A stretch of DNA of 64,000 nt. Source: Fodinibius halophilus. Its GTDB lineage: Bacteria > Bacteroidota > Rhodothermia > Balneolales > Balneolaceae. The DNA lies in the NCBI RefSeq assembly GCF_011059105.1, contig NZ_JAALLS010000012.1:1-64000 (forward strand), in the 5' to 3' direction. The translations under genes and the position numbers were made by a program. The notes beneath the pieces are model-generated. The model was not told the origin of the DNA. It saw only the letters and a list, made by a program, of their open reading frames with translations, and did not search any database. Of this stretch, positions 9,750 to 60,862 are shown one piece after another. The first letter of the stretch is position 1; each line of letters begins with the position of its first letter.

Positions 9750-9777
9750 CCTGATAGTGGACTGTATTCAAACAGCG

Positions 9778-11965: not shown

Positions 11966-12193
11966 AATAGCCCTTGATCGTATTATTTGGAATTACACTC
12001 TGTTATTTTTTATCGGTAACCGATTGCGCCCCACCTAACAAAAGCATAAACACGCCTTTGCACATTAATTATTTAATCATAGAATCTCAAAAAATTAATG
12101 GATTGAACACAGCAAATAAATTACTTAATGATAAAATCCACGGCAGGAAAACATCTGATGATGCCTGTACCCGTGACCCGTGGTTTACTTTCG

Positions 12194-12499
12194 CTATTTA
12201 TCATTCAGAATGCCTTTCATGCCCGTGAGGAACGAGCATATGAACGGATAGCCACCCGTTTTATGCGGAACTGTAAAAGTAACTTCAACAGTCTCATCAC
12301 TGGCAGCTAATCCTGTATAGGCGATAGGTTGAATGTCGGCGCTGTGTTGGGCTTCGTCCTTATTTTCAGAACTGCAAACTGTCACCCACAGGCCGTAACA
12401 AACAACAATACAAGAAGAAATATATACATTAAATACCGCACATATTATGATGAGATATAGTTGATTATAATTCAGTGAAAAATTATACCAATGTTGCAT
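12194..12499 (-). pseudogene. Remnant of a plastocyanin/azurin-like copper protein
   Basis: A 101-aa frame with a damaged hydrophobic start, a Cys followed by 'SSENKDEA' like a lipoprotein linker, then 'TVEVTFTVPHKTGGYPFICS'. That is the C-terminal strand of a blue-copper protein including the Cys ligand. It then jumps to 'LTGMKGIL', whereas cupredoxins have a PGH...MKG loop. The C-terminal His ligand and the upstream His ligand region are absent, so internal deletions have probably removed copper binding. It overlaps the 3' end of the OsmC gene by 17 bases. Confidence 0.6.
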
Positions 12500-15044: not shown

Positions 15045-15058
15045 AGCACATACATTAT

Positions 15059-16489
15059 TTATGAGTTGGAAGGTTCATCAACGTTCTTATTGCTCTGAGG
15101 TCGCATTTTCCAGACGTTGTAGGCGAAAATCAGATGCGACATAAACATCATAGTACCGCCAACCGCACGCCATACCCAGTAAGGAGCCATCAGGGTTACT
15201 GATTCCATAAATGGGTCTCCTGCTATCCAGCTAAGCCCCTGCAATGTTCCACCGATCATCAGGGGAATACTGTACACCAACACCCCTATAAAGGCCAACC
15301 AGAAATGTGCGCCAACAGCAAATTGCGGCGGCTCATAACCGGTCATTCTCGGGATTAACCCATAAATGCCGCCCCACACCAAGAATGACACAAAACCATA
15401 CATACTCATATGTGAATGAGCAATTGTAAAGTTGGTGAAGTGCCACGTTTTATTCAGCGATCGGAAAGCTTCCAGCGTACCCTGGTAAGATACAATGGCA
15501 TAGAAAATGACGCCCACCAGAATAAAGGGCAGCGAATAACTACGAGCGATAGAGCGCCACTTACCGCGCATCGTCAACAAAAAATTTCCTGTTCCAGCTG
15601 TTACCGGTACAATCATCCCTACACTAAAAACGATAGCAACAGTTTGGATCCACCAGGGAATGGGACTAAATACAAAGTGATGCGAACCTATCATTGTATA
15701 AAAGACCATTTGCGTCCAAAAAGCCAGCACCCCCAGTGAGTAGGAATAAATGGGTCTGTTCAATAATTTGGGCAAGAAGTAATACGTCAACCCCAGCACC
15801 ATCGGTGTAAACCATTGCCCCACCCCTTGGTGCATGTAATACCCCTGAATTACCGTCTGGCTAATTCCGTCTTGTTGATATCCCGGCAAATAAGCGATGG
15901 CTGCCAGGATAATTGTCCACAGGCAGGCGGCCAGTATGTACCAGTTGGAAATATAGATCTCTTTTACATTACGGTTGGCAATCGTTTTGTACAGATTATA
16001 GGCAACCAAGATCAACCCGAATGCAAAAAGCGAAAAAATAGGCCAGATAAATTCGCGGTATTCCTGCGCCCCGTTATTAATACCGGCCATAAGGCTTATA
16101 ACTCCTAATATTACTGATAGATTCATCAGCCAGAGACTAGCCCATCCCACTCGGTAACTAAACAGCTCGCGTTGGCTGGTACGGGGTACCACATATAACG
16201 CCAGTGCAAGCATCGCCTGGGAAAGGAACCCCCAAAATACCACATTAGTATGCACCGGACGCAAGCGCCCGAATGATAGCCAGGAAATCGTGTCAATTTC
16301 CGGCCAAATAAATTTAAATCCTAAATATTCACCAACTAAGGTGCCAAACACCAGCCAAAAAGCGGAACAGGCAATAAAGGAAAATATCAGTTTAACAGAT
16401 TTAGAGGAGGTCTCTATGCGCTCTTCGGCTTTTGCTTTTTCGACCGTTAAGGGTCGCTCTACAGATTGTACAGCAGAAGGTTTATTCAT
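15059..16489 (-). CDS. ccoN: cbb3-type cytochrome c oxidase catalytic subunit I
   Basis: A 476-aa, 12-helix haem-copper oxidase core that reduces O2 to water at high affinity while pumping protons. Haem b ligand His is in 'LRPVHTNVVFWGF'; the CuB histidines are in 'YYMHQGVGQWFT' and GSHHFVFSP; 'FTIAHSHMSMYGFVSF' carries the distal haem ligands. A cytosolic N-terminal extension of about 30 residues precedes helix 1. First gene of the ccoN-ccoO-ccoQ-ccoP-like operon, 14 bases before ccoO. Divergence around the CuB site (HQGVGQ instead of HNAVGF) suggests a distinct cbb3 subgroup. Confidence 0.95.
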   Translation of the reverse strand: MNKPSAVQSVERPLTVEKAKAEERIETSSKSVKLIFSFIACSAFWLVFGTLVGEYLGFKFIWPEIDTISWLSFGRLRPVHTNVVFWGFLSQAMLALALYVVPRTSQRELFSYRVGWASLWLMNLSVILGVISLMAGINNGAQEYREFIWPIFSLFAFGLILVAYNLYKTIANRNVKEIYISNWYILAACLWTIILAAIAYLPGYQQDGISQTVIQGYYMHQGVGQWFTPMVLGLTYYFLPKLLNRPIYSYSLGVLAFWTQMVFYTMIGSHHFVFSPIPWWIQTVAIVFSVGMIVPVTAGTGNFLLTMRGKWRSIARSYSLPFILVGVIFYAIVSYQGTLEAFRSLNKTWHFTNFTIAHSHMSMYGFVSFLVWGGIYGLIPRMTGYEPPQFAVGAHFWLAFIGVLVYSIPLMIGGTLQGLSWIAGDPFMESVTLMAPYWVWRAVGGTMMFMSHLIFAYNVWKMRPQSNKNVDEPSNS

Positions 16490-42700: not shown

Positions 42701-43117
42701 TTAGGTGGTGCTGGCCCGGTAACTTACAATGCGATCCCAATGAAGAATTACAAACAGGACAACAGCACTTAATTCCAATATTCGTCCCAACAGCCCGAGC
42801 CCCCATGAAACTGAGAGTAGGATATCGGCAATAATAACGAGAATTCCCAGATTTAGCGCTACTACCATACCTATAGCTAATTGGGGATTCCCGCGTTGAG
42901 GTTGTTCTAAAAATCTGGGAAGCATCCAGTAGGCTGTACCCAGCGTAAGCTGAATAACCCATCCAAAAATTACCACCTCTATGTGGATGGGTAACAGTGC
43001 CCATACTGACGGGTGGATCACATATGCTTTATTGACAAGCATTATTGCCCCTGATACCATTCCCACCAAAAGGTACAGCAAGGAAATCCGAATCATCCAA
43101 CGACTTATTGCAGGCAT
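42701..43117 (-). CDS. Small membrane protein resembling the first helices of CcoN (copy 1)
   Basis: 138 aa, four hydrophobic helices. 'LLPIHIEVVIFGWVIQLTLG' followed by TAYWMLPRF lines up with CcoN helix II, where the ccoN in this window has 'RPVHTNVVFWGFLSQAMLAL'; the shared His is the low-spin haem b ligand. No CuB His pair, so it is not an oxidase by itself. It is homologous to the next gene (43120-43566), 2 bases away. Possible haem-b protein; role unknown. Confidence 0.75.
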   Translation of the reverse strand: MPAISRWMIRISLLYLLVGMVSGAIMLVNKAYVIHPSVWALLPIHIEVVIFGWVIQLTLGTAYWMLPRFLEQPQRGNPQLAIGMVVALNLGILVIIADILLSVSWGLGLLGRILELSAVVLFVILHWDRIVSYRASTT

Positions 43118-43119
43118 TA

Positions 43120-43566
43120 TCAGCTCCTATTTCGTTGACGTTTCCGTTTTTTACGCTGTGCTTTTTTCGACATTACCCGAGGCCATATCTCAATGAGATA
43201 CGTTATTCCTGCCAACATATGCAGAACCGAGGATATCACAATAAGAATCTTCCATACCTCAGCACTTTGCCCACTGATCATAGGCTCGGCAACAACACGC
43301 AGTGCCAAACCGATATTTAAGAAAATAAAAGTGCCCCAGTTCCATTTCTGGTTCCAAAATCCTTCTTCTTTGTTACGGCCGGGAAACATCCATACCGAAA
43401 CCCCGATAATGATCTGGGTAATCCAGCCTAACATCAACATATGCCAAAAGAGAGGCATCAGGGCCGGGAATGAAAACTGCTCTATCTCCAACAATAGGCC
43501 TGCTACTAGGGATAACACAAAATAGACCATCCCTGATTTGATAAAAGTACGACTAACAAATGGCAT
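43120..43566 (-). CDS. Small membrane protein resembling the first helices of CcoN (copy 2)
   Basis: 148 aa, four hydrophobic helices with a very basic C-terminal tail (KKAQRKKRKRQRNR). 'ALMPLFWHMLMLGWITQIII' and GVSVWMFPG match the helix II pattern of copy 1 and of CcoN, again with a single candidate haem-ligand His. The start codon overlaps the DUF3565 stop (TAATG), so translation is coupled. Paralogue of 42701-43117; the two may form a heterodimer. Function unknown. Confidence 0.75.
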   Translation of the reverse strand: MPFVSRTFIKSGMVYFVLSLVAGLLLEIEQFSFPALMPLFWHMLMLGWITQIIIGVSVWMFPGRNKEEGFWNQKWNWGTFIFLNIGLALRVVAEPMISGQSAEVWKILIVISSVLHMLAGITYLIEIWPRVMSKKAQRKKRKRQRNRS

Positions 43567-43775
43567 TACAATTCGAAATCTTTGGGTTCACTTCTGTCAC
43601 ATTTCTTGCACTCTAATTGATGGCCAAGCCTGCTTTTTCGCCCCTCTCGGGTTGTTACCCAAGGACGCAGCTGCCAGGGTGGATTGTGGCGCACATGCTG
43701 GTTATGTCCACAACCAAGCTCGGCCACCCAATCATCTTCCTCATCTTTGTGATAACCGATTATGGGCTGCTTCAT
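43566..43775 (-). CDS. DUF3565 protein
   Basis: A 69-aa soluble protein from the ATG at 43775; the frame extends to a TTG at 43787 but 'MKQPIIGYHKDEEDDWVAEL' is the family-typical start. Cys/His-rich: GCGHNQHVRH, HQLECKKCDRSE, likely a metal site. DUF3565 proteins recur next to respiratory and nitrogen-oxide genes; biochemical role unknown. Coupled to the downstream mini-CcoN gene. Confidence 0.85.
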   Translation of the reverse strand: MKQPIIGYHKDEEDDWVAELGCGHNQHVRHNPPWQLRPWVTTREGRKSRLGHQLECKKCDRSEPKDFEL

Positions 43776-43797
43776 AACACAATCCAATATTTAAACT

Positions 43798-44247
43798 TTA
43801 CTTATTTACTGCTGAAATCTGTTTCCGGTAATTGGAATGGCAGTCCACACACCCCTGCTGTACAATTCGATAATGGGTTAGCACCTCTTCCATATTCTGC
43901 TCAACAGCTGCCTTTCGCATCGAATCAGCGTGATGGTGTACCGTCTTATCAAAGGCCACAAACTGTTTAATTTCCTTTCCCAATACCTTTTTAACCATTG
44001 CCTTATCCTCGGGCGTCATCACCGGGTGATGAGCAATACCTGCCGCCCCCTGTGCAATAACCTCATAATCTTCGGTATAAATACCCTGATCAACGGTTTG
44101 CATATCATTGAGCAGAAGCTGCATCATCGGCACCAGCTTCATTGTTTCGGGCTGAGACTCCTCTCCCTGAAAATAGGACCAGCCAATCATTGAAACTGAT
44201 GAAACTACAACAACTAGTAATACTGCCACTGATTCTCGCGCTATCAT
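43798..44247 (-). CDS. Exported cytochrome with C-terminal CXXCH
   Basis: About 149 aa from ATG 44247; a TTG four codons earlier also exists. N-terminal hydrophobic anchor (7-25), a helical middle, and haem motif CVDCH at 133-137 near the C-terminus, the arrangement of cytochrome c-prime/c-554-like proteins, which bind NO or act in electron transfer. HHPVM and FDKTVHHHADSM are additional His-rich sites. Starts 1 base after the stop of the membrane-globin fusion gene. Confidence 0.82.
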   Translation of the reverse strand: MIARESVAVLLVVVVSSVSMIGWSYFQGEESQPETMKLVPMMQLLLNDMQTVDQGIYTEDYEVIAQGAAGIAHHPVMTPEDKAMVKKVLGKEIKQFVAFDKTVHHHADSMRKAAVEQNMEEVLTHYRIVQQGCVDCHSNYRKQISAVNK

Positions 44248-44248
44248 A

Positions 44249-45877
44249 TTAATCTTCAAATTTTCCTTCCATTTCCATTCTCACCGAAAATGATGACGCA
44301 ATCTTAGCCGCCATCTCTTTTGCATAATCTGCTTTTGTCCCTTCAAAATGATCGTCTACGGTTTGCTCAAAAAGATTGTACCAGCGACCAAAATCCATCT
44401 TCTCAATGGGCAGATCCATATGTTGCCGAAAGGGACGACCGTTATACCGCCGTGTTTTAAACAGTATATTCGACCAGAAGTCAACCATATTGGGCAGGTG
44501 CTTATCCCAATCAACCTCCGCATAATCATTAAAAACATATCCCAGGCGCTCATCTTCTTGTACTTTGCTATAAAAGGCATGTACCAGCGTCTTTATATCT
44601 TCATCATTTTTAATATCGGACATCGGTTCTGTTTTTTGTAGCGTCTTAAGATTCATCCATTGTAAAAGTACAGCCAACACCGGCAGTATTGCAGCAACAG
44701 CAAGTGCATAAAAAACCCACATACCGCTCCATGAAGCCGGCCATAGATGGGTGGGCATCACTAAGCTGAGAAGTAGTGCCAATATTGATCCCACAACACC
44801 ATAAAAGTATTTGTTAGCGGCTTTGGCCTGCAGGTGTAAACTGCCCAACATCATAAGTGTAAAAGCTCCCAGTAATAATACATGCAGGTAAAATATGCGG
44901 AGCCCATGATCTGATAGCCAAAAAGAAGCAGGGCCTGCCGAAGCTGTTATCTGCATAACCGCTTTTATGGCAATTAAAGAAATAGGCCAAATCCATATCG
45001 GCGTATTTGTTTTCCATTTTCCGGACTTAACCAAAGTATATAAAAAGAGCACTAATCCCAGTGCTGCAATGCCGCCTCCCAGCCGTGCTACTCCCAATAA
45101 AAGAGGGGACAACAGAGATTCTGAAATCCCATAGGGAAAGGTCAATGGGGCACCGATAGCAATGCATCCCAGCGACCACGATTCCTGTATCGTCCAGTCC
45201 TTGGCTTTTAGATCCAGCTGCACTACCATAATAGCCAATAAAGCTAACACTACCCATCCCTCGGTAAAGGTAGCCAGGAAAAAGTGCGTCATCCCCTTCA
45301 TCAACATAAAGTTCGAGGGAGCAAGTGCTTGCACAACAGCCACACTCCAGGCCCCCAGCGAACATACAAAAAGCATGACCAGCGCACCGTCGAACCAAGG
45401 CTGGGCCGAATCATCTTTTAGATGACTGCGAACCCTGTAATATCCCCACATAAAGGCATACCAACAGAGCATTACCAGCCCTGATAGGATTACCGACAAC
45501 GGTAATGTACCTGTGCCAATGGGAACCGGGCGATAGCCGTAGAGCAGGAAAAAGGGATAAGATAAAGCACCAAATATAAGCCCGCCCCATATTCCATACT
45601 TCATCCAGCGAAAAGCCGATTTAGTAATCGCTATTTTTTCACTGAGGTATCTCAGCAAAAGATACAGGGGTAAAGGCACAGCCCATCCGAAAAACATCAG
45701 GTGCGAATGGGCATGCCTTATATTTTCAAGTGATAACCCCAATGAGGATGTAACCCAACCGATCATCCCGAGACGATACAGAAAGCCCGTTAGACCTGCT
45801 ATAATAAAACAAGCCACTGATACCTTCCACAGGGAGTTAATAGCCGATTGGGGTTTGTTATCCATTGCTGTCTGCAT
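44249..45877 (-). CDS. Multi-helix membrane protein fused to a truncated haemoglobin
   Basis: A 542-aa single reading frame. Residues 1-410 hold about 12 hydrophobic helices; helix II contains 'ENIRHAHSHLMFFGWAVPLP', like haem-copper oxidase helix II, and later 'KGMTHFFLATFTEG' and 'LRIFYLHVLLLGAF' give further His, but no HH CuB pair. Residues 419-542 are a group III truncated globin ('VHAFYSKVQEDERLGYVFND', 'DFWSNILFKTRRYNGRPFRQ', probable proximal His486, 'FGRWYNLFEQTVDDHFEG'). An internal ATG at 44623 could start a separate globin but lacks a ribosome binding site. A likely NO/O2-binding membrane sensor or reductase. Confidence 0.8.
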   Translation of the reverse strand: MQTAMDNKPQSAINSLWKVSVACFIIAGLTGFLYRLGMIGWVTSSLGLSLENIRHAHSHLMFFGWAVPLPLYLLLRYLSEKIAITKSAFRWMKYGIWGGLIFGALSYPFFLLYGYRPVPIGTGTLPLSVILSGLVMLCWYAFMWGYYRVRSHLKDDSAQPWFDGALVMLFVCSLGAWSVAVVQALAPSNFMLMKGMTHFFLATFTEGWVVLALLAIMVVQLDLKAKDWTIQESWSLGCIAIGAPLTFPYGISESLLSPLLLGVARLGGGIAALGLVLFLYTLVKSGKWKTNTPIWIWPISLIAIKAVMQITASAGPASFWLSDHGLRIFYLHVLLLGAFTLMMLGSLHLQAKAANKYFYGVVGSILALLLSLVMPTHLWPASWSGMWVFYALAVAAILPVLAVLLQWMNLKTLQKTEPMSDIKNDEDIKTLVHAFYSKVQEDERLGYVFNDYAEVDWDKHLPNMVDFWSNILFKTRRYNGRPFRQHMDLPIEKMDFGRWYNLFEQTVDDHFEGTKADYAKEMAAKIASSFSVRMEMEGKFED

Positions 45878-45897: not shown

Positions 45898-47703
45898 TTA
45901 TGCCGGTTGTGCTAACTGCTGAAAGATAGCATTCAGTCGTTCTCGCTGCTCTACCACTGTAACAGGAATGGAGTCCAGATTTTCATCTTTGTAAGATTCT
46001 GATTCAGCAATCTCCAGGCAGTAATCCATTCCGTTCTCGAGATTATTCTTAAACTTTTTGAGTTTTTTTATGTTCCCCGATGAACCGTCATGTTGTTCAA
46101 CGAGCTCCTCAAAATAATCCACATAAAGAACAATCTCTTTGGCAAACATATGGGGTCGTTCGGAAGGAACCAAAGATTCCCCGCGACCGTAAATATGGTC
46201 TATCATTTCACGGAGACTGTATTCTCCGTCGAACCAAGCAATATTGGGTCCGGGACAGATCGCCTGCGGTGCTCGGTGCTCAGCCAAAATTCCCAGATCA
46301 ATAAGCGCGCCGTTACCCAAATGGTCACACAGGCACGCTTTCTCCAACACCTTTTCTCGCCTTTTTTCTTTTTCCTCCTCATCCATATCGCTTTGATTAA
46401 TTTCATCAAGTTTCAACAGCTGATACTGATTAGAGGCCGTACAAATTGGATTTTCCGTGAATTCCGTATTGGATTCCAAGAAACCCTTTGGACAGGGCGA
46501 GCCGGGCTTTCCTTTTTCAATACGCTCTTCGTGATACTGATGCGAACCGGTGTTACGTACATTATTAAAAGGCACACCCAGCGGTGAGACCCCACTTAAA
46601 TATAGATCCTCTTCGGTTGCATTTTCGAGCAGTTCGCGTGTAGGCTTATCCACCGTCGTCGCTTCAGGAACCAACAAAAACGGACTCCCCCAACCGGTGG
46701 CATCCATTCCAAAATCTTCCAACAGTCGGTGTGCTTCACCGCTTACTCCAATTCCACCTTGAACAGTGAGACGTGGCTCGTCAAAATCCCAATCGTCAGA
46801 GAACCCATCGGCATTTTTCTCATAATACTTTTCTATCAAAGGCTTCACTGCTGTACTTAACATTTCTCGCTTTTCTCTAAACTCTTTGAGCAGTGAAGGC
46901 AGCAGGTATCCGTCGGAGGCAAATGCGTGTCCGCCACAGTTCAACCCGGACTCTATACGATATTCAAAAACCTCGAGTCCTTTTTTCGCCAGGTATTTAC
47001 CCTGAATTAGTGCTGATCTAAAATCACTTACTTTCAAGATGATTTTCTTTTTGATATCTCCTTTTGCATCCCGGTAAAAATCCTTGAATTCACTCATATA
47101 ATTATACAAGCGGGGATTAAAACCAGCAGACAGAATAAGACTTGATGACAGGTCACTTTCTGCATAACCACGCAAAGCAGCATTAGCATCACTAAATTCG
47201 CCACTCATTGGGGTTCCGTCCTTCTCGTAGTTTAACCCATCGACCTTAGCCATAATATTGACATCAATCGAGCCGGGTTCCATCAGCTGCGAGAGCTTGC
47301 AAGAGATTTTATCACGCAGGGTGCCCTCCTCGGTTTGCATCAGCTCATTGTACCTGGCTTTCAGCTCACTAGTATCCGGCAACAGGTCAAAGTACTTGGC
47401 CTTTTCATTATCCTCAAAAAACGGCTGCGACTTGATCGCTTCGAACTGATCCTGAACTACCTTCTGTGCCAGATTCAAGTAAGCTGTTATCCTGCGGGCG
47501 CGGCCATCCTCTGCGCTACGCGGGATATTATTATATGGAAGTTCCAATTTCTTACAGTAATGCTTGCGGATGCGCTCTACCAGCAGATCATCCACAATTG
47601 AGATTACTGAGTCAATGCCGTACGGTCCAACACGGATGGGAGAGTCGATAGAATGCCCCGTTCCCATAACCGGTATTGAAAATGTGTGTGAAGAGTTTGA
47701 CAT
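45898..47703 (-). CDS. Conserved 601-aa protein of unknown function in the nitrogen-oxide block
   Basis: A 601-aa soluble protein. It starts 'FSIPVMGTGHSIDSPIRVGP' and 'YGIDSVISIVDDLLVERIRK', then 'GLNCGGHAFASDGYLLPSLL' and 'GGIGVSGEAHRLLEDFGMDA', which together recall a TIM-barrel flavoenzyme of the nitronate monooxygenase/NPD type. The C-terminal third has spaced cysteines (SPCPKG, PICTAS, ACLCDH, AICPGP) that could hold an iron-sulfur cluster. Family and reaction are not established. Placed between RIC and the membrane-globin gene. Confidence 0.7.
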   Translation of the reverse strand: MSNSSHTFSIPVMGTGHSIDSPIRVGPYGIDSVISIVDDLLVERIRKHYCKKLELPYNNIPRSAEDGRARRITAYLNLAQKVVQDQFEAIKSQPFFEDNEKAKYFDLLPDTSELKARYNELMQTEEGTLRDKISCKLSQLMEPGSIDVNIMAKVDGLNYEKDGTPMSGEFSDANAALRGYAESDLSSSLILSAGFNPRLYNYMSEFKDFYRDAKGDIKKKIILKVSDFRSALIQGKYLAKKGLEVFEYRIESGLNCGGHAFASDGYLLPSLLKEFREKREMLSTAVKPLIEKYYEKNADGFSDDWDFDEPRLTVQGGIGVSGEAHRLLEDFGMDATGWGSPFLLVPEATTVDKPTRELLENATEEDLYLSGVSPLGVPFNNVRNTGSHQYHEERIEKGKPGSPCPKGFLESNTEFTENPICTASNQYQLLKLDEINQSDMDEEEKEKRREKVLEKACLCDHLGNGALIDLGILAEHRAPQAICPGPNIAWFDGEYSLREMIDHIYGRGESLVPSERPHMFAKEIVLYVDYFEELVEQHDGSSGNIKKLKKFKNNLENGMDYCLEIAESESYKDENLDSIPVTVVEQRERLNAIFQQLAQPA

Positions 47704-47793: not shown

Positions 47794-48513
47794 TTAGTTT
47801 AATCGATTTTCCAACCTCAAAGCTTTTGGAAACAGTACATTGTTTTCCAAGTGGACATGCTTGTGCAGGTCATCCTGAAACCCTTCTAAGTTTTGAAACA
47901 GCACTCTATACGTTGCACATGCATCCTGGGGAGGCGTAAAACCGTTACTTAGTTCCTCTATCTGTGCCATCAGGTTACCGGCATCCTCATGTTCGGCCTC
48001 CATCATCGCTACGGGATTAGCTGCAGTTCCAAAATCAGGTTCATCAATAGCACTATCATTCTTGTCAGCTTCTACCAGCTTTTTGATATACGGAAACAGA
48101 ATTTCTTCTTCCTTCATCAGGTGACTTAACATCTCTTCTTTCAGCTTCAGAAATGTATCCCGAATCCCTATCAGCTCTTCATGACGGTCGCCATGTACAC
48201 GGGCTACCTTGCGAGCATACATCTCAATTTCAGATGTTTTGGATCGCACAAATTCGTGATGCCGCTCTATGATATAATCTACAAGCAGGGCAGGAGACCA
48301 ATCATTGTAATTGTGATTTGCAGTGTTGGCATTACCTAATGAAGTCAATTCTTCTGAAACTTTTTCAAGGTCCACACCTTTCTTTTCACAAGCTTCTGAA
48401 ACTGTGCGCTTTCCACCGCAACAAAAATCCAGGCCAAACTTTTTAAATACTCCGGCCGTTCTGTAATCCTCGGCTACAATTTCACCTATCGTCTGTCCAT
48501 TTAACTTTTCCAT
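47794..48513 (-). CDS. ric: Iron-sulfur cluster repair di-iron protein RIC (ScdA/YtfE)
   Basis: A 239-aa cytosolic protein that repairs Fe-S clusters damaged by NO or peroxide. The N-terminal DUF542 domain has 'KKFGLDFCCGGKRTVSEACE' with the Cys pair; the hemerythrin-like bundle supplies iron ligands in ERHHEFVR, HGDRHEEL, 'HLMKEEEILFPYI', MEAEHEDAG and HVHLENNVLFP. Canonical length. An AAGAGTATTTT half-site like the one in the Rrf2 promoter lies just upstream, so it may belong to the NO-responsive regulon. Confidence 0.95.
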   Translation of the reverse strand: MEKLNGQTIGEIVAEDYRTAGVFKKFGLDFCCGGKRTVSEACEKKGVDLEKVSEELTSLGNANTANHNYNDWSPALLVDYIIERHHEFVRSKTSEIEMYARKVARVHGDRHEELIGIRDTFLKLKEEMLSHLMKEEEILFPYIKKLVEADKNDSAIDEPDFGTAANPVAMMEAEHEDAGNLMAQIEELSNGFTPPQDACATYRVLFQNLEGFQDDLHKHVHLENNVLFPKALRLENRLN

Positions 48514-48570: not shown

Positions 48571-49632
48571 CTATAATAACCTTTCCTTAAATTCCCGCTT
48601 TAAACCCCAAGCCCGATACATAACGGTAATCCAGCTTATCCAAACCAGCATAGCAGCCAGCTGATGGATTACCCCGGCTTCTATAGGCACGTTCCATAGC
48701 AGGGTAACGACCCCCAGAATAAACTGGGCTACAACCAGACCAACCAAAACTTGTGCTCTGTGATACAGGACCTCGTCAGCGACTTTCTTTGCTTTGAACC
48801 ATGTGATCGCAGCTGTTACAACCAATATTATGGCCAACAACCTGTGAATCCATTGTACCGTACCGGGATTTTCTACAAAATTAAGCAGCATCGGCTGCAA
48901 GGTCGTAAAATTTTGTGGCAACCAGCTACCGTTCATCAAGGGAAACGTATTATAAATCAAGCCGGCATCGAGGCCTGCCACCAGGGCTCCCCAAACTATT
49001 TGGAGCCCTAATATAATCCCCACAAAAAAAACCAGTGGAGACAGATAATGGTCAACCTTTTTAATATTAATCGTAATATCTTTTCGCATATCCAAGGCAA
49101 ACCAGGTACAAAACCCAACCAAACCAAATGCCAAAATTAAATGCATCATCAACCGGTAGTGGCTTACCCGGGGCACATCAACCAAGCCACTTTTAACCAT
49201 TATCCAACCCATAACGCCCTGTGCTGCACCTAGTACAAATAAGAACAGCGAACGTTTTATAAGTCGAGATGTTAAATAACCGCGGACCAAAAACCATAAA
49301 AAAGGAACCATGAAAGCTAAGCCTACAATCCTTCCCAGCAGGCGGTGCGAATATTCCCAAAAAAAGATCGATTTAAATTCGCCCAGGGTCATCCCGATAT
49401 TCAATTGTTGATACTCAGGAAACTGCTTGTACCTGCTAAATACTTCTTGCCAAGCCGTCTCTGAAAAGGGGGGCAATACCCCCATAATCACATTCCAGTC
49501 GGTCATAGACAGACCAGAACCGGTAAGACGCGTAATACCGCCGACTATCAGCATCAGCGTAACCAGACCGGCTCCGGACCAAAACCACCATTCAATATAT
49601 TTTTTAGATTTATGGGTTCTTGTTTCTGCCAT
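48571..49632 (-). CDS. ctaA: Haem A synthase
   Basis: A 353-aa eight-helix membrane enzyme (CtaA/COX15) that oxidises the haem O methyl to make haem A for aa3-type oxidases. Signatures: 'GGITRLTGSGLSMTDWNVIM', EYSHRLLGRIVG, 'GWIMVKSGLVDVPRVSHYRL', 'ALVAGLDAGLIYNTFPLMNG', IHRLLAIILV and VIHQLAAMLVW with the four haem-ligand His. 2 bases downstream of ppdK. ctaB and aa3 oxidase genes are not in this window; only a cbb3 oxidase is. Confidence 0.95.
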   Translation of the reverse strand: MAETRTHKSKKYIEWWFWSGAGLVTLMLIVGGITRLTGSGLSMTDWNVIMGVLPPFSETAWQEVFSRYKQFPEYQQLNIGMTLGEFKSIFFWEYSHRLLGRIVGLAFMVPFLWFLVRGYLTSRLIKRSLFLFVLGAAQGVMGWIMVKSGLVDVPRVSHYRLMMHLILAFGLVGFCTWFALDMRKDITINIKKVDHYLSPLVFFVGIILGLQIVWGALVAGLDAGLIYNTFPLMNGSWLPQNFTTLQPMLLNFVENPGTVQWIHRLLAIILVVTAAITWFKAKKVADEVLYHRAQVLVGLVVAQFILGVVTLLWNVPIEAGVIHQLAAMLVWISWITVMYRAWGLKREFKERLL

Positions 49633-53750: not shown

Positions 53751-54542
53751 TTAAAAATCCTTTTTGTTAAACAATCGCTTGCCACTCCAAAGCGGTATAC
53801 CTAACCATAGTCCCAGGCAGGCCGTTGCTACACCTATTCCTATTACACTACCAAAGAACCGGTTAAAAACAGCGCCGGTATAACCCATTAGAGCTGAAAT
53901 ATCGAACTCTAATAGCACGGTGATTCGAGCCAGGTCAATGGGGTTTAGCATGGTCATGGCCAGCATTGGCTCCTCGATGGGATAGTCGCCCAACATAAAT
54001 ACGGCCAACAGAACCAAGCCGTCATAAATAACAGCTAGAAACAACCAGCTAACCAGGGCATATCCCAATCCCTTGATGCGGTTTTCGAAAAACTTGAGTC
54101 CCATCCAAAAGCCCAGCCCTGTAAATAACAGGGTTAACACATTTCCCAGGATAACCAGCAGTGCAAGAGATTGGAACTTTGCTGAAAGTACCATCCCTGT
54201 ATAGATCATTGGAATAAGGATGCCCGCGGTAAAGGCAAATGCCAATGGCAGGGCCAGTCCTCCGAACAATCCCCAAAACAAGGTGTTTCTATCTAAGGGC
54301 TGTGCTAATAGTAACTCGGTAAATTCGCGCGACTGGTATAAGTAGAGAGCTCCGTAAATGACACCAACCAAAGGTATCAGCAGCAGCATAATATTTGCGA
54401 TACTGATCATGGCCTTGGGCCCGGTACCAGCAAAACGAATCATTGCATCAGACATAAGCAGATAAATTAGCCCATAACCGATAATCCACTTTCCTCGAAA
54501 CAGGTCTTTCCACTGATATTTTAAAATGGTCAATGTCTTCAT
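53751..54542 (-). CDS. nosY: Nos ABC transporter permease
   Basis: A 263-aa six-helix membrane protein of the ABC-2 type. N-terminus 'LKYQWKDLFRGKWIIGYGLI' and 'LYQSREFTELLLAQPLDRNT' are typical of NosY. With NosF it moves a sulfur species or assists NosD for CuZ assembly in NosZ. Its ATG overlaps the nosF stop (ATGA). Confidence 0.93.
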   Translation of the reverse strand: MKTLTILKYQWKDLFRGKWIIGYGLIYLLMSDAMIRFAGTGPKAMISIANIMLLLIPLVGVIYGALYLYQSREFTELLLAQPLDRNTLFWGLFGGLALPLAFAFTAGILIPMIYTGMVLSAKFQSLALLVILGNVLTLLFTGLGFWMGLKFFENRIKGLGYALVSWLFLAVIYDGLVLLAVFMLGDYPIEEPMLAMTMLNPIDLARITVLLEFDISALMGYTGAVFNRFFGSVIGIGVATACLGLWLGIPLWSGKRLFNKKDF

Positions 54543-55249
54543 GCCGCTACCTCCGCCATCATTTTTGCTACGGCGCCTTCAAGTCGCTGCTCTTGTTGTT
54601 TTTCAATCAGTTCTTTCATCGGTCCGTGATACCTGATCTGCCCTTCTACAATAAAAATCAGATAATCAGCAAGTTCCTCAATTTCGCTCATAATATGAGT
54701 TGTCAGGAGCACGGTTTTTCCTTTCTCCTTCTCGCGGTGTACCATATTCTTGAACTGTACACTGGCATGGGGATCAAGCCCGGCCGTGGGCTCATCGAAG
54801 ATCAAGATCTCCGGATCAAACATCATAGCTAACACTGCACCTACCTTCTGGCGATTACCACCGGAGAGGGTGCGCATTCGTTTCTCAAGCTCCGGCTCTA
54901 ATCCGAAGTATGAAATTAATTCATCTTTATTCGTTTCCCCTGTTTCACGAATATTCTTTATAAACTCAAACAGTTCGCTAACAGTCATATTCTCGGGATA
55001 TCGTGCAATTTGGGGCATGTACCCAATCTTTTTGCGATAGTCCCATTGCCCCTTTATAGATTCGCCGTCAATAAGTATATCTCCGGCATTAGGCTTCACC
55101 AGTCCCAGCAATGCTTTTATAGCTGTGGTTTTTCCCGACCCGTTAGGGCCTACTATTCCGGTGGCCTGACCCGATGGAATATCTAAATCGATATCATCGA
55201 GCACTGTAAGGGGACCAAACTTTTTCCTCAATCCTTTTATTGAAATCAT
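54539..55249 (-). CDS. nosF: Nos ABC transporter ATPase
   Basis: A 236-aa ABC ATPase. Walker A GPNGSGKTT (about 34-42), signature LSGGNRQK, Walker B ILIFDEPTAGLDP, H-loop LTTHIMSEIEE. Powers NosDFY in CuZ maturation. ATG overlaps the nosD stop and its own stop overlaps nosY, giving a tightly coupled DFY unit. Confidence 0.95.
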   Translation of the reverse strand: MISIKGLRKKFGPLTVLDDIDLDIPSGQATGIVGPNGSGKTTAIKALLGLVKPNAGDILIDGESIKGQWDYRKKIGYMPQIARYPENMTVSELFEFIKNIRETGETNKDELISYFGLEPELEKRMRTLSGGNRQKVGAVLAMMFDPEILIFDEPTAGLDPHASVQFKNMVHREKEKGKTVLLTTHIMSEIEELADYLIFIVEGQIRYHGPMKELIEKQQEQRLEGAVAKMMAEVAA

Positions 55250-56487
55250 GATACTTTGGTCATTTTCGGTTGGGAGTCAACGAGTGTTTCGGGGGTAAGT
55301 ACCGGCATAATACGCTCGGCTGCATCCAGGATATCGATAAGCAAGCTGCGAAGCAGTAACAAAGACTGCGGCTGCTTTTCTACCAATATGGAAAACAGGC
55401 GTACCGGTCGGTGAGGGACGTCGCCTATTCCGTCCCTGTCTAAATCGTACCCTTCGTAGTGACTCCAGTAGTTATTGTTAAATTCGTTATAGTTTTTCAT
55501 GCTGTTGGTAGCCACTTCAAAACTATTCGCTATAAAATTGTTTTTGGTAAAGATGTTGTCTGTAGAATTGGCCATCAGCTTAACAGCCCATCCATTTTGA
55601 CGGAATGTATTGTGCTTAAACTCATTTCTGCTGGTCGCCTCGATATACAGCCCTACCGAATTGTTATAAAACTCATTGCCAATAATCTTGCTTCTGTTAA
55701 TCTCTTTAAGAAGCATGCCATAGGCCGAAGACCCCCAATTGTCTTCGAACCGGTTATTAATAATCTCTACGTGAGAAGTGTACATTACGGCTACTCCACC
55801 GCCATTATTTCTAAAGGTATTATCTTCATACCGACAGTGATCGGAATACATAAAGTGTATACCATAACGAATGTTATTCTCACTCACATTTCCGGATATG
55901 GTTGCTCCTTCTACAAACTCGAAATAGAGTCCGTCTCGATGCCCGGTTACATAGTTATCCTCAATAGTAACATCTTTACTGTACCAGAGATGGATAGCAT
56001 TTCCTGATTGTGTTTCGCGTTTGGCGGATGCGGTAATATGATTATTCCTGATCACAGAGTTGGTTGATTTGGCCAGGTAGATGGCAAAATAGTTATCCGT
56101 GAGTGTTACATTTTCGATAACCGTATTATCTGTTTGCTCAATTAGAATGCCCGCATAATCTTCCATAAAACTGGTACTGGCGTGTTTAACCTCAAGATTC
56201 TTAACGGTTACATCATCGGCCGTTATTACCAGTATAAATCCTTTTCTATTGCCGTCAATAACGACATCCCCATCACCCAGAATGGTTAGCGGTTTGTCCA
56301 CTTTTATATCGTATTCGTTATAAAGCCCTTCCTCAATTATCAGGGTATCGCCCGGTTCTGCCCGGCTGACCCCTTCTTTGATAGAGCTTCCGCTAGACAC
56401 TACCACCGGCTGACTTTGAACAAGTTGTACCGATAGTAATAGCAGCAGGACTATAAGAAGTCCGGTTATTTTATTATTCGCCCACAT
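55246..56487 (-). CDS. nosD: Nitrous-oxide reductase maturation protein NosD
   Basis: About 413 aa from ATG 56487 (GAGG upstream); a TTG two codons earlier is less likely. Sec signal peptide to about residue 26, then a right-handed beta-helix of CASH repeats, with NosD-specific 'AIHLWYSKDVTIEDNYVTGH', 'DGLYFEFVEGATISGN', 'RYGIHFMYSDHCRYEDN' and 'GVAVMYTSHVEIINN'. Periplasmic; delivers the sulfur of CuZ to NosZ together with NosFY. Confidence 0.95.
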   Translation of the reverse strand: MWANNKITGLLIVLLLLLSVQLVQSQPVVVSSGSSIKEGVSRAEPGDTLIIEEGLYNEYDIKVDKPLTILGDGDVVIDGNRKGFILVITADDVTVKNLEVKHASTSFMEDYAGILIEQTDNTVIENVTLTDNYFAIYLAKSTNSVIRNNHITASAKRETQSGNAIHLWYSKDVTIEDNYVTGHRDGLYFEFVEGATISGNVSENNIRYGIHFMYSDHCRYEDNTFRNNGGGVAVMYTSHVEIINNRFEDNWGSSAYGMLLKEINRSKIIGNEFYNNSVGLYIEATSRNEFKHNTFRQNGWAVKLMANSTDNIFTKNNFIANSFEVATNSMKNYNEFNNNYWSHYEGYDLDRDGIGDVPHRPVRLFSILVEKQPQSLLLLRSLLIDILDAAERIMPVLTPETLVDSQPKMTKVS

Positions 56488-56531
56488 TTTCAATCCTCAA
56501 TCCTTATTTACCTTTAACGCCTAGTATTCAA

Positions 56532-56975
56532 TCACATATTCGTCTTAATCTCAGAAACCTTGCTCCACTTCAGTAACTCACCCGGCTTTTCACTTGTATG
56601 CTCGTTAGCTACCTCAGCAGATGGAAAAGCTAACAGCGACTCTCCCATAGGACTGTTGACAACCTCGCTTTTCACATACTGGGCCTTTGACGCTTCGAGC
56701 CATTGACCGGGCTTCTCATAGTTGCTTACCCACAGTTTAGCATCTTTTAATTCGCTATCATGATTCCTGTGGTAAACGGCCATACATTCAATCGCATCAA
56801 ATTTAATTGCTTTTCCTTTATCCGTTACAATTTGAGATGCAAACCGATCGTCCGTGATCATCATTTTGCAGTGAGCACACTCATCACTACCATAGTGCAC
56901 TTCCTCCGGTTCCTGGCTGCATGCCACTACCAGCATAAACAAAACAAGCAGTATGGTTGTTCTTATTGCAGTCAT
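56532..56975 (-). CDS. nosL: Copper chaperone lipoprotein NosL
   Basis: A 147-aa lipoprotein (signal ending VVAC, Cys19). 'GSDECAHCKMMITDDRFASQ' contains the Cu(I)-binding C-x2-C-K-M site of NosL, and 'KAIKFDAIECMAVY' is a second family motif. Donates copper to NosZ in the periplasm. 18 bases after the NosB-like gene and 45 before nosD. Confidence 0.95.
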   Translation of the reverse strand: MTAIRTTILLVLFMLVVACSQEPEEVHYGSDECAHCKMMITDDRFASQIVTDKGKAIKFDAIECMAVYHRNHDSELKDAKLWVSNYEKPGQWLEASKAQYVKSEVVNSPMGESLLAFPSAEVANEHTSEKPGELLKWSKVSEIKTNM

Positions 56976-56993
56976 TGCGATCTCCGGATACGA

Positions 56994-57617
56994 TTAAGCA
57001 GCCTTTCGAGTATTGTTATTCATAGTCTTTTCACTTTTTCCGCCATCATCAGTCTTACCTTCTTTCCACCACACCATAGAAGCAATACCCATAGAAATCA
57101 GGGCCACATAGAAACCGATATGGGGCAGTGAGGTTGCATTAATATTCAGCAGTTGTTTACTACCTATAAGAGGTGGCTGATAGGTCATTCCAGGCACCTT
57201 GATCGGGGCATTCGGATTTAAGTTATGCCCGTAATCATAACCCCAGATATAGAAATCTACCAAGCCCGCGATAGCCAGCAGTACAAACAGCCCAAGCCAG
57301 ACAACAATCCACTTTCGGCTGCCCCATAGTGCAATCATCAAACCAGTTGCAATCAAAAAGGCAAAGATATAGGGCATAATTTTTAACTCGGGAATAGAAT
57401 CAGGCGTAATAGCCTTCATTCCGATATAGTGATTCAGTCCATTGATATTACCAAGGTCATGCGGTTCCTTACCGGTGATATCATTGACTGTAATATTCAT
57501 TCCAATGCCTTCAGGATATTGCGGTGCTTCCATGCTGATACCCCACAACGGGAAAAAGTATACCAAGATCAGCATTAGTGAAGCCAGCGCCATCCATAAT
57601 CTGTTTTTCTTACTCAT
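56994..57617 (-). CDS. Four-helix membrane protein of the nos cluster (NosB-like)
   Basis: 207 aa. Helices at about 9-27, 83-103, 107-128 and 167-185, with a periplasmic loop containing 'GLNHYIGMKAITPDSIPELK' between helices 1 and 2. Clade II nos clusters typically carry a small four-helix protein (NosB) right after nosZ, which this resembles by position and topology; direct sequence identity to NosB was not tested. It may link NosZ to electron donors or copper supply. Lies 85 bases after nosZ behind a terminator. Confidence 0.7.
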   Translation of the reverse strand: MSKKNRLWMALASLMLILVYFFPLWGISMEAPQYPEGIGMNITVNDITGKEPHDLGNINGLNHYIGMKAITPDSIPELKIMPYIFAFLIATGLMIALWGSRKWIVVWLGLFVLLAIAGLVDFYIWGYDYGHNLNPNAPIKVPGMTYQPPLIGSKQLLNINATSLPHIGFYVALISMGIASMVWWKEGKTDDGGKSEKTMNNNTRKAA

Positions 57618-57649
57618 AACAACCTCTGTCTATATATTTCTACAATTTT

Positions 57650-57690
57650 TAAAAAGAGGAAGGGAGCTTTCACCCTCCCCTCCACGAAGG
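57650..57690 (-). terminator. Attenuating terminator after nosZ
   Basis: On the minus strand an imperfect gggag/ctccc-centred stem is followed by a T-run within 'ctctttttaaaaattg', between nosZ and the NosB-like gene. It would make nosZ more abundant than the downstream maturation genes. Confidence 0.7.
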
Positions 57691-57702
57691 ATTGAGGTCG
57701 TT

Positions 57703-59679
57703 TTACTGACCTGTTCCGTAGGCGATTTCTACATCAGATCCTTTTGGCGATACTCGTACATAACCCTGCATCTCTTGGTGCAGTGCTGAACAGAAGTCCG
57801 TACAGTAGAATGGGAACACGCCTTCTTTTTGAGGCTCCCACTTAAAGGACAAGGTTTCGCCGGGCATAATAAGCAGTTCTGCATTATTAGCACCCTTTAT
57901 GGCAAAGCCGTGGGGTACATCCCAGTCCTGCTCAAGATTTGTAATGTGGAAGTACACTTCATCTCCCACTTTCACACCTTCAATATTATCCGGAGTAAAG
58001 TGACTTCGGATGGCGGTCATGTAAATGTGAACCTCATTGCCGTCACGCTCAACTCTTGCCTGCTTTTCGCTGGTTATAGCATCTGGGTGACCATTATCTT
58101 CAAGCTTGTAGAACCGCTTTTGGTTCTCAATCACTTTCTCAGCAGCAATACCCTGCGCATAGTGCGGCTCTCCCTCTGTTGGGAAGTCGAGCAAAAGCTT
58201 CATTTTTTCACCGGAAATATCGATCAACTGTGCAGAGTGGAACATCTCAGGACCTGTAGGCAGGTAACGATCCTTGGTAATCTTATTCAGAGCTACCAGG
58301 TATTTACCATCAGGTTTCTGACTGTCTCCACCGGGAATCATCAAGTGACCGGGAGAGTAATACGTGTTGATACGGTCGACAACTTCTGTCTTTTCAATAT
58401 CCCATTTTACAATCTCAGAAGAGATAAAAGCAGTGGTATAAGCATTGCCTTTGCCGTCAAACTCGGTGTGTAGCGGTCCGAGGCCCGGATTCTCAACTTC
58501 ACCGTAAAGAATAGAATCATAGTTAAGAACAGGAACGCCCATTACTTCACCTTCAAACTCTTCGTTCTCAATTGCTTTTTTCATTTTAGCAAAAGAGTGT
58601 ACCGGAATAACAGTAGAAAGCTTACCACCGGCTACTATGTACTTCCCTGAAGGATCTACATCAACCCCGTGCGGAGACTTAGGAGTAGGCAAGAAATATA
58701 CTAACCCATCAAGTTTGCGAGGATCAAGAACGCGTACTTCTTCAATTGTTTCGCTTTTGGCAATACCGCCTTCTTCGTGATCAATATAGTTGCGGACGTG
58801 CTCACCGGGCATCATGGTACCTTTACCCTGTTTCACATACTCCGCAGCTTTCTTCCAGTTTACCGCTGCAATAAAGTCCTTATCATTCTTAGAAGCGTTA
58901 ATTTCCAATAGTGTATTTGCTTCTTCACTGTTGTAGCTTGTAAAGAACGACCATCCATCAGAAGGACCTTTACCGGCATGAGACAAGTCATAGTCAAAGC
59001 CCGGCATCAAGATCTGAAAGTCTATATTCATCTTACCTTTATCAGAAACCTTAATAAAGGAGAGTGTACCCCTGAAGTTCTCTTTATAAGAATCAATTGG
59101 CACATCCATATTCTGCATATCTTTATCATCCATCGGGATACTAAAGCGTGTTGCTGCAGAAATGTACTCCGTATTAGGAGTTACAAAAGGGGAAGCGTGG
59201 TTACCTGCAGAGTTGGGGATCTCAATAATCTCCTGCGTCTTAAAATCATCAAGCCCAATACGTGCTACACGAGGTGTATTGTTCTCATTGATAAAGATCC
59301 AACGCCCATCGGTTTCACCGTTAGTTTGAGACAACTCAGGGTGGTGCGCATCGCCCCAAGGTACAAATCCGTGCGAGGTGTTCAGCATCGCCTTGGTTTC
59401 TTCACTGTACCCGTATCCATTTACAGGAGCCTGAGAAAATACAGGAACCGTAAACAGGTGACGCCCGGAAGGCAGCCCGTAGATTCCCAATTGTCCGTTA
59501 TATCCCCCGGAAAAGAATCCGTAGAATTCGTCATGTTCACCCGGAGCAACATATACTTTTGATGCTGCGTCATCTGATGAACCGATCTGTTGACCGTTCT
59601 GGCATCCTGCCAGCAACACTCCTGATACTACCAGAAGAGGTAGCGCCCAGGTGCCTATTATTTTATGTATGGTATTCAT
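57703..59679 (-). CDS. nosZ: Nitrous-oxide reductase, clade II (Sec-type), predicted lipoprotein
   Basis: A 658-aa enzyme reducing N2O to N2. The signal has a hydrophobic core without a twin-arginine motif and ends LLAGC (Cys25), a lipobox, so the enzyme is probably membrane-tethered. The CuZ propeller has 'GDAHHPELSQTNGETDGRWI' and 'FLPTPKSPHGVDVDPSGKYI'; the CuA domain ends 'FPFYCTDFCSALHQEMQGYV' with the two Cys, His and Met ligands. Second gene of the transcript after the cytochrome c gene; maturation genes nosL, nosDFY follow. Confidence 0.97.
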   Translation of the reverse strand: MNTIHKIIGTWALPLLVVSGVLLAGCQNGQQIGSSDDAASKVYVAPGEHDEFYGFFSGGYNGQLGIYGLPSGRHLFTVPVFSQAPVNGYGYSEETKAMLNTSHGFVPWGDAHHPELSQTNGETDGRWIFINENNTPRVARIGLDDFKTQEIIEIPNSAGNHASPFVTPNTEYISAATRFSIPMDDKDMQNMDVPIDSYKENFRGTLSFIKVSDKGKMNIDFQILMPGFDYDLSHAGKGPSDGWSFFTSYNSEEANTLLEINASKNDKDFIAAVNWKKAAEYVKQGKGTMMPGEHVRNYIDHEEGGIAKSETIEEVRVLDPRKLDGLVYFLPTPKSPHGVDVDPSGKYIVAGGKLSTVIPVHSFAKMKKAIENEEFEGEVMGVPVLNYDSILYGEVENPGLGPLHTEFDGKGNAYTTAFISSEIVKWDIEKTEVVDRINTYYSPGHLMIPGGDSQKPDGKYLVALNKITKDRYLPTGPEMFHSAQLIDISGEKMKLLLDFPTEGEPHYAQGIAAEKVIENQKRFYKLEDNGHPDAITSEKQARVERDGNEVHIYMTAIRSHFTPDNIEGVKVGDEVYFHITNLEQDWDVPHGFAIKGANNAELLIMPGETLSFKWEPQKEGVFPFYCTDFCSALHQEMQGYVRVSPKGSDVEIAYGTGQ

Positions 59680-59733
59680 AGTAGTTATTATTTGTGTTTG
59701 ATTAATTGAGATAACTCTTTGTTTAAAAGACTC

Positions 59734-60228
59734 TTAAATTTCGTCCACATCCTGGTTCTTATTCATATACCGCAGAAACTCTACAATAGACCGAGCTTCT
59801 TCTTGGCTCAGATTCTGATTCGGCATCGGAGTCATAAATTCAGCCAGCTTTTTCTTTGCTTCGGGATGTTTTTTGACCATTTCGGCCGGATTCAAAATCA
59901 TATTCATCACATATTCGGGTGTTCGCTCCTCCGTAGTATTACGTAGTTGAGGGCCCACATATCGCTCGTCCATTTTGTGACATGCCGAACATTTGGTCTC
60001 AAACATATTTTGACCTTTTTTTGCCAGCTCTTTATCGATCTCACCCAGATCTAACTTTTCTGTTACCGGACCTATACCATTCTTTTGCTCAAAAGAACTA
60101 AGTCCATTTTCATTTTCTTGTGATGACTGATCGGATGCCTGGTCGCCATTTCCGGAACCGCCGCAGCCTACGAACAGTACACTTGCCATTATGGCCAATC
60201 CTATTATTTGTTTAATGCTATATTTCAT
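59734..60228 (-). CDS. Lipoprotein cytochrome c, probable electron donor to NosZ
   Basis: A 164-aa exported lipoprotein (lipobox FVGC, Cys22), an acidic Ser/Gln-rich linker, then a class I cytochrome c with haem motif CSACH (about 83-87) and axial Met in FMTPMPNQNLSQEEA. It precedes nosZ by 54 bases on the same transcript, where it may pass electrons to the CuA centre. A TTAAGA-N8-TCTT box lies just upstream of the start. Confidence 0.92.
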   Translation of the reverse strand: MKYSIKQIIGLAIMASVLFVGCGGSGNGDQASDQSSQENENGLSSFEQKNGIGPVTEKLDLGEIDKELAKKGQNMFETKCSACHKMDERYVGPQLRNTTEERTPEYVMNMILNPAEMVKKHPEAKKKLAEFMTPMPNQNLSQEEARSIVEFLRYMNKNQDVDEI

Positions 60229-60252
60229 AACTACCTGTTGCTGTTTGTAGAT

Positions 60253-60272
60253 TTAAGAGTACTTTATCTTTT
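60253..60272. promoter_or_regulatory. Candidate Rrf2 operator upstream of the cytochrome c/nosZ genes
   Basis: TTAAGA (60253-60258), 8-base spacer, TCTTTT (60267-60272). One arm matches the palindromes at 60879 and 61079 fully, the other by four of six bases. It is 25 bases before the cytochrome c start. Confidence 0.5.
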
Positions 60273-60409
60273 ATTGTTATTGCAAACAACTTCTGTGCCA
60301 ATCTTTGTGTTTACCTCAGATTAATCTAAAAGAAGTTTTCTGCAGATGATTATTGCATCAATGCAATACTTTTCAATTTAAAAGAGTGTACATTTGCAAC
60401 ACCCTTTTA

Positions 60410-60862
60410 CTAAATCCATTCGAACCCGCCGTCCTCAGTAATCCTTAAATTTTGTTTCTTACCCTTTTCAGCCAATTCAAGCAAGTTGGTGTCTTCTAAC
60501 ATCTGGCGAATACCGTCGCGCGTTCCGGCCCACTTATCGTGCAGGGGACAAGGTTTTTTAACACCGCAGCCCGGCAACCCTAATGCACATTCGGTAAAGA
60601 GCTCTGTTCCATCAATAGCTGCAACGATCTCGTACAAACTCACTTCAGAGCCTGCTTTGGTAAGTCGCACACCGCCCTTTGGACCTTTGTGAGACTCCAT
60701 CAACCCTGCACCAGTTAGCTCCTGTAAAATCTTAGTTAAAAAATGAAAGGAGATATCCAACTGATCGCTCATTTCTCGAATAGAAGTATATCCATCTCCT
60801 TTACAGGAAGCGAGAAAAAGCGAGGACCTCAATCCATAAACACACGCTTTTGATAACAGCAT
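60410..60862 (-). CDS. Rrf2-family transcriptional regulator (NsrR-like)
   Basis: A 150-aa winged-helix regulator. 'ISFHFLTKILQELTGAGLME' and SHKGPKGGVRLTK are the Rrf2 recognition helix and wing. Three Cys in 'CALGLPGCGVKKPC' (about residues 85-98) are the usual Fe-S ligands for NsrR-type NO sensing. It precedes and shares direction with the cytochrome c/nos genes. A perfect palindrome in its own promoter suggests autoregulation. NsrR, IscR or another Rrf2 subgroup cannot be separated with certainty. Confidence 0.9.
   Translation of the reverse strand: MLLSKACVYGLRSSLFLASCKGDGYTSIREMSDQLDISFHFLTKILQELTGAGLMESHKGPKGGVRLTKAGSEVSLYEIVAAIDGTELFTECALGLPGCGVKKPCPLHDKWAGTRDGIRQMLEDTNLLELAEKGKKQNLRITEDGGFEWI

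Follow-up and report, generated by a model that had tools for sequence, protein, structure and literature searches.

A membrane protein of predicted haem-copper oxidase fold shares a reading frame with a group III truncated haemoglobin near the nos genes of Fodinibius halophilus

The locus and its neighbours

The stretch of DNA analysed here, called the window throughout, comprises the first 64,000 nt of contig NZ_JAALLS010000012.1 of Fodinibius halophilus. As assembled it contains an open frame of 542 codons from an ATG (44249-45877, minus strand) that runs through a membrane protein and on into a globin without interruption, just as an earlier note on this DNA had claimed. The two halves of this frame and the genes around them, given in order of position, are as follows.

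42701-43117 and 43120-43566, minus strand: two small membrane proteins, of 138 and 148 aa respectively, that both match Pfam COX1 below threshold
43566-43787, minus strand: DUF3565 protein, part of the same conserved block
43798-44259, minus strand: cytochrome c'-like protein with CVDCH, its match to Pfam Cytochrom_C_2 just under the cut-off; TTG start; 11-nt overlap with the end of the globin
44249-44623, minus strand: globin half of the joint frame (residues 419-542), a group III truncated haemoglobin with its own ATG at 44621-44623
44627-45877, minus strand: membrane half of the joint frame (residues 1-417), a 12-helix protein of predicted haem-copper oxidase (HCO) subunit I fold without the CuB His pair
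44632-44637, minus strand: run of six A (A6) before the globin start
45898-47703, minus strand: 601-aa protein of no recognised family, immediately upstream of the membrane gene
47794-48513, minus strand: RIC/YtfE di-iron protein of Fe-S cluster repair
48571-49632, minus strand: CtaA/COX15 haem A synthase (Pfam)
53751-60862, minus strand: nos block of NosY, NosF, NosD, NosL, a 207-aa protein, NosZ, a cytochrome c and an Rrf2 regulator
57703-59679, minus strand: NosZ, within the nos block
60410-60862, minus strand: Rrf2 regulator, within the nos block

NosY and NosF are an ABC permease and an ATPase that were named from their position, and a HemN gene is also found on the same strand in this context. 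Four of the neighbours are NO-related, namely RIC (to whose family we take dnrN to belong), the cytochrome c'-like protein, the group III globin and the Rrf2 regulator, and the description of the surroundings as a NO/N2O block is upheld. The 601-aa protein is 94.5% identical in the nearest relative, and many loci have it close to the membrane gene or to RIC.

The 138- and 148-aa proteins resemble each other in a hydrophobic motif that includes a His (IHIEVVIFGW; FWHMLMLGW), and the 148-aa type touches the NnrS profile in two relatives. The pair is possibly a two-piece haem protein.

The globin half and the joint frame

Residues 419-542 had been read as a complete group III truncated globin with His486 as its probable proximal ligand, and both readings are confirmed. 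Pfam places Bac_globin at residues 425-514 (22.7 bits against a cut-off of 21, E 1.2e-4), the only other Pfam match to the full 542-aa protein being at chance level, and NCBIfam gave no match to the full protein. Over residues 6-113 of 124 the globin half matches Ctb, the group III haemoglobin of Campylobacter jejuni, at E 1.5e-15 (2IG3); FRQHMDLP falls on KKHLDLP in this alignment, which puts His486 at the proximal position. The alignment to 2IG3 keeps the haem-pocket residues Y436, H460, W468, H486 and W499, at helix positions that we take to be B10, E7, E15, F8 and G8 respectively, so that a Tyr B10, a proximal His F8 and a Trp G8 are all present. A His at E7 and a Trp at E15, found here as H460 and W468, are given as the hallmark of group III, or P, haemoglobins in a published account (PMC4720485). 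Unlike Ctb, the present globin is encoded in frame with a membrane protein, or adjoining one in relatives.

Genome G395, the nearest relative, shares 81% identity with the window in the membrane half and 83-85% in the globin; its membrane protein ends NRTDARY*, and the gene runs 14 nt past the beginning of the globin gene in a different frame. Upstream of the globin ATG the net difference between G395 and the window, which reads CAAAAAAC, is one base, and if one extra A is placed in the A6 run the membrane frame of the window ends NRTDVRY* inside the globin start. Whether the joint frame is open thus depends on a single base in the A6 run; it probably arose through the loss of one A, either a true deletion or an artefact of assembly, shortly ahead of a would-be 14-nt overlap.

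We think it probable that the A was lost by a real deletion in the cell. Of 40 ORFs of G395 with over 55% identity to the window, none has to be matched there in more than one frame, in a comparison that includes shadow frames and lies mostly in the 28-64 kb part of the window with few matches before it, which indicates that this stretch is not rich in indel errors; furthermore six A is a short run. An error of sequencing or assembly, such that the true sequence has one more A and a 14-nt overlap like that of the nearest relative, is nevertheless a real possibility, albeit one that we hold in some doubt: a single added A yields an ending that matches that of the relative, the one-base difference falls in a homopolymer, and the fused frame occurs in only one of the 12 genomes of the genus. 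Even after a real deletion the globin would keep its own ATG within the fused frame, and so free globin may also be produced. Slippage on the A6 run as a source of both products was considered and rejected, as by hand reading one additional A would create a heptamer that the membrane frame reads as A AAA AAC, yet a -1 shift there would miss the globin frame.

The earlier note had proposed a search for the same fusion in other genomes, and relatives within the genus turn out to keep the two halves as separate genes. With the whole protein as query at E 1e-3 the single match in its own genome is the gene itself. The membrane half is present in all 12 of the genus genomes examined, where it is fused to the globin once (the window), adjoins a separate globin gene in nine and has no adjacent globin in two; G250 has a globin match about 20 kb from the membrane gene, and the genome of G081 has no globin match. 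The membrane frame is closed by its own stop in each of the nine genomes with an adjacent pair, and the distance from where that gene ends to the globin ATG is -14, 9, 3, 9, -1, -8, 62, 2 and 10 nt.

Looking further afield, among the matches listed for the 394 genomes of the phylum-level group three extend across membrane and globin parts alike, namely the window itself and two that are interrupted by a stop, and among the 64 listed matches to the membrane half an open frame of more than 500 aa is found only in the window (577 aa) and in G135 (881 aa). The frame in G135 (L108, read as 813 codons) was considered as a second fusion and dropped, since the membrane protein begins well inside it and the preceding part resembles, by eye, a GC-rich overrun. 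Among 72,556 plasmid records there were 163 matches to the query, none covering 80% of it, and a contig from an uncultured Aliifodinibius MAG is a relative with the membrane and globin genes separate. Among the open-access papers searched we recognised none that treats the membrane family or this fusion with a globin.

One frame across both halves was thus seen in a single species, the window standing alone among the 12 genus genomes and the matches listed elsewhere, and the joining is probably incidental rather than a conserved trait. The view that the fusion is a functional design gains no support from a genus in which nine of the 11 relatives have separate adjacent genes and the other two no adjacent globin; covalent joining would add at most a membrane tether. 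As the genes are separate or overlapping in relatives, it is likely that the two proteins are expressed together and serve a common pathway.

Predicted fold, histidines and topology of the membrane half

It had been proposed that the membrane half is HCO-like and has about 12 hydrophobic helices, and the predicted structure agrees on both counts. When modelled alone with AlphaFold2 (pLDDT 92.9, pTM 0.92) its helices, once grouped, number 12 within residues 9-416. VIA-align matched the model to CcoN (3mk7_D) with a Z of 34.0, at 3.0 A over 399 of the 417 residues and 9% identity, and to a NO reductase with a Z of 31.9, whilst the top 38 rows from Foldseek were all oxidases, NO reductases or their supercomplexes, the best of them (E 5e-7) to a CcoN-type chain. 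These matches indicate an HCO subunit I fold in the model, and such a fold for residues 1-417 is supported at the level of structure prediction.

At the level of sequence, Pfam COX1 has no match at E 10 in the window protein or in 28 close relatives, and matches one of ten distant relatives at E 0.76 and 9 bits. Scans with Pfam and NCBIfam, run on the membrane half of the window with those 28 relatives and on the ten distant ones, found nothing common to more than two members; the lowest Pfam E among the 29 sequences was that of PF11070 DUF2871 (0.035, in two of the 29), the lowest among the distant relatives that of PF00032 (0.024, in one of the ten) and the lowest NCBIfam E that of a "hypothetical protein" model (0.0011, in one of the 29). 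A sequence profile of the membrane half found no chain at E 10 among the sequences of the PDB. Comparisons with hhalign, whose E-values and probabilities are here those of single comparisons and therefore rough, placed R54-x-x-H57 on the R-x-x-H of helix II in CcoN-type proteins of related genomes (local alignment, E 0.0035, probability 9%), gave no useful global alignment to CcoN and aligned only 27 columns with COX1.

The same method placed H332 on the conserved LH of a late helix of NnrS, with E 0.028 and probability 1.8% in local mode and E 0.0006 and probability 12% in global mode. The Pfam NnrS model (PF05940) has no match in the window protein at E 10, and its matches at E 0.001 across the genome of the window and 57 relatives are two small proteins only, both below the cut-off and neither of them in the genome of the window; an NnrS query against the plasmid records gave no match.

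In CcoN the low-spin haem is held by His on helices II and X, the high-spin haem by His on helix X and the copper by His on helices VI and VII, the helix VII pair and the helix VI His being the CuB/FeB ligands. Helix II of the membrane half does bear HAHSHLMFFGW, as had been remarked, which is to say HxHxH. In an alignment of 29 sequences that includes the window (A1), R54, H55, H57 and H59 of helix II and Y330 and H332 of helix X are invariant, among others, and H198 of helix VI is present in at least 90% of the sequences. A further alignment (A4) of 27 sequences sets the window beside 26 relatives that share 17-81% identity with it; here H57, H59 and H332 are invariant, and H55 and S58 are kept at 90% or more. 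In this alignment the helix VI His does not keep to one position across the family: it is at 198 in 11 rows, is aligned to 202, one turn deeper, in 15 distant rows and is missing in L029.

Distant relatives (L133-L150) have an LHFQxNGW-like motif in helix VI in place of the THFFLATFTEGW of the window family, which puts the helix VI His one turn deeper in these proteins.

Helix VII of the window protein (232-250) contains no His and the corresponding columns of A1 and A4 no conserved one, so the earlier remark that no CuB pair can be seen stands. There is likewise no HxH on helix X, where H332 is the sole invariant His and has Y330 and L334 at -2 and +2 in the window protein. The tentative assignment to the low-spin haem comes from the hhalign comparison (E 0.0035, probability 9%) for H57 and from register only for H332. 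From the positions of these His in a cofactor-free model we infer that the protein probably still binds haem b between H57 and H332, and the two would hold a single bis-His haem near the periplasmic face. The site for reduction of oxygen or NO would have been lost, there being neither a CuB pair nor a helix X HxH. The membrane half resembles CcoN and NorB in its predicted 12-helix fold, its R-x-x-H on helix II and, by hand reading, a single invariant helix X His followed by Gly at +5, in the register of the low-spin haem ligand; it differs from them in having 9-11% identity to the CcoN and NOR rows, in the missing His pair of helix VII and HxH of helix X, and in the three His of helix II.

Canonical oxidases leave empty the pore in which H59 and the helix VI His would lie. 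That these two form a second site, giving the protein two haems or a haem and a metal and with them a NO chemistry of its own, seems unlikely to us. In its favour, H59 is invariant and H55 and S58 are kept at 90% or more in the 27 sequences, and every row except that of L029 has a helix VI His, one turn away in the 15 distant rows; the lack of this His in L029 argues against a site that depends on it. A more elaborate and decidedly improbable variant would have the HxH moved from helix X to helix II, with the haem b of H57 and H332 and the site of H59 and helix VI occupying pores that oxidases use otherwise, NO being handled without CuB; a true tether to a cytosolic globin in this species would then make the protein a NO trap on both faces of the membrane.

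The loops on the side of the N- and C-termini hold 14 K+R (and 9 D+E) versus 5 K+R (and 3 D+E) on the opposite side, a bias that places the termini and the globin in the cytoplasm, and the globin would on this charge distribution be cytosolic. With the sides so assigned, 7-9 residues separate H57, H59, H198 and H332 from the ends of their helices opposite the globin, and 19-24 from those on its side, and a putative haem site near the far face makes a direct electron path to the globin unlikely. A model of the full-length protein, built on an alignment (A3) whose membrane rows are trimmed by about 28 codons, has a pLDDT of 90.3 and a pTM of 0.76, with the linker at 412-416 below a pLDDT of 50; the lower pTM and the poorly predicted linker point to two good domains on a loose tether, the globin not being docked with confidence.

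It had also been suggested that electrons from the quinone pool are passed to the globin, and the placing of the His on the opposite face and the missing docking speak against this; transfer from quinol to globin is unlikely. In a genuine functional fusion quinol would supply electrons to the membrane haem or haems, these would pass them to the tethered globin, and the globin would in turn reduce or dioxygenate NO. Whilst the joint frame is open, both halves are modelled with confidence and the gene context is that of NO and N2O, the candidate haem His are on the side away from the globin (K+R 14 versus 5), the full-length model has no confident docking and the genes are separate in all nine relatives with an adjacent pair, and we regard such a fusion as very improbable indeed.

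Linkage to nosZ and proposed role

A profile of the membrane half has matches in 63 of the 394 genomes of the phylum-level group, 35 of them strong and 28 weak. The weak matches, to distant relatives, are mostly partial profile matches with 17-20% identity where aligned, and 17 of 18 weak-match loci hold a protein of 376-429 aa with a profile match at E 1e-3; these 28 distant relatives may not share the function of the membrane protein. NosZ, counted as present at E 1e-60, is found in 128 of the 394 genomes, being in 51 of the 63 with a membrane-half match and 77 of the 331 without, which corresponds to a Fisher odds ratio of 14, uncorrected for kinship. In 36 of the 51 genomes that have both, the membrane gene and nosZ are within 25 kb of each other, and in the other 15 nosZ is more than 25 kb away or on another contig; 12 of the 63 have no NosZ match, six of them among the 35 with a strong membrane-half match and six among the 28 with a weak one.

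At closer range 44 loci were examined, 43 of which have a membrane-half match. In these 43, where flank lengths differ, stretches are at most 19 kb and some loci were chosen for their nearness to NosZ, 26 have a nos gene within 10 kb, and at that distance 33 have at least one of nos, NOR575 and RIC whereas ten have none of these; within 6 kb of the membrane gene RIC occurs in 14 and a globin in 12. In three of the ten (L092, L097 and L098) NosZ lies 18-21 kb away. A globin is within 10 kb of the membrane gene in at least 13 genomes, at least seven of which are outside the genus, and in L127, L128 and L129 a globin stands beside cytochrome c' in stretches with no membrane gene.

We somewhat favour the explanation that two genes of one NO/N2O block have come to share a frame in the assembly, that the membrane protein belongs to an undescribed family of HCO fold, CuB-less and linked to nos clusters, which binds haem and has a role in NO tolerance during N2O/NO respiration, and that the globin is co-expressed with it. 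This explanation retains from the earlier interpretation the HCO-like character, the absence of a CuB pair, the group III globin and the NO/N2O block, and gives up the functional fusion and the transfer of electrons from quinol to globin. By analogy with NnrS, the membrane protein would bind or buffer NO at a haem towards the periplasmic side and protect N2O/NO respiration; the soluble group III globin, which would bind NO or O2, would do likewise in the cytosol.

The comparison with NnrS extends to a similar length (seven NnrS are of 381-414 aa), a late-helix LH followed by Gly at +5 in the hhalign comparison and a gene in a NO/N2O context, nnrS being in a published source termed a hypothetical haem-copper membrane protein and found with dnrN in proteobacterial NO regulons (PMC1274295). 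According to a second source, NnrS does not itself remove NO but shields the iron pool against dinitrosyl complexes (PMC9246220). Unlike NnrS, the membrane gene has no PF05940 match and the profile match between the two is weak.

The main rival to a role in NO tolerance is electron supply to NosZ, whereby the membrane protein would be a b-type cytochrome that passes electrons from menaquinol to a periplasmic cytochrome c and thence to NosZ, the link with the globin being secondary. This would be in keeping with the linkage of the membrane gene to nosZ, with a putative haem close to the periplasmic face and with the 11 of 43 loci that encode, no more than 6 kb away, a relative of the 164-aa cytochrome c. 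However, nosZ is missing from 12 of the 63 genomes that have a relative, the RIC and globin genes within 6 kb (14 and 12 of the 43 loci) fit NO defence better and a NOR-like gene is within 6 kb in two of the 43, and on balance we think a donor to NosZ unlikely.

It is the membrane family and not the globin fusion that appears worth following. Proteins of predicted HCO fold without the active-site copper ligands lie in or near the N2O-reductase clusters of many genomes of the phylum-level group, and they may serve an undescribed step in N2O/NO respiration or protect against NO, besides offering a test case for the re-use of the three-pore oxidase fold.

Finally, other proteins of oxidase type were observed in and around the window. 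In the 20 kb after it (L119) a NO-reductase-like HCO protein of 575 aa (8521-10248 of that stretch, minus strand) adjoins an HCO-like protein of 487 aa (10985-12448, minus strand) in which the helix VII His pair seems, by eye, to be absent. Within the window a CcoN-like protein and a FixO/cytochrome c partner (14031-16489, minus strand) form a cbb3-type variant near a hemerythrin-like gene, and in relatives (L110-L112) the CcoN-like/FixO block also comes with a group III globin.
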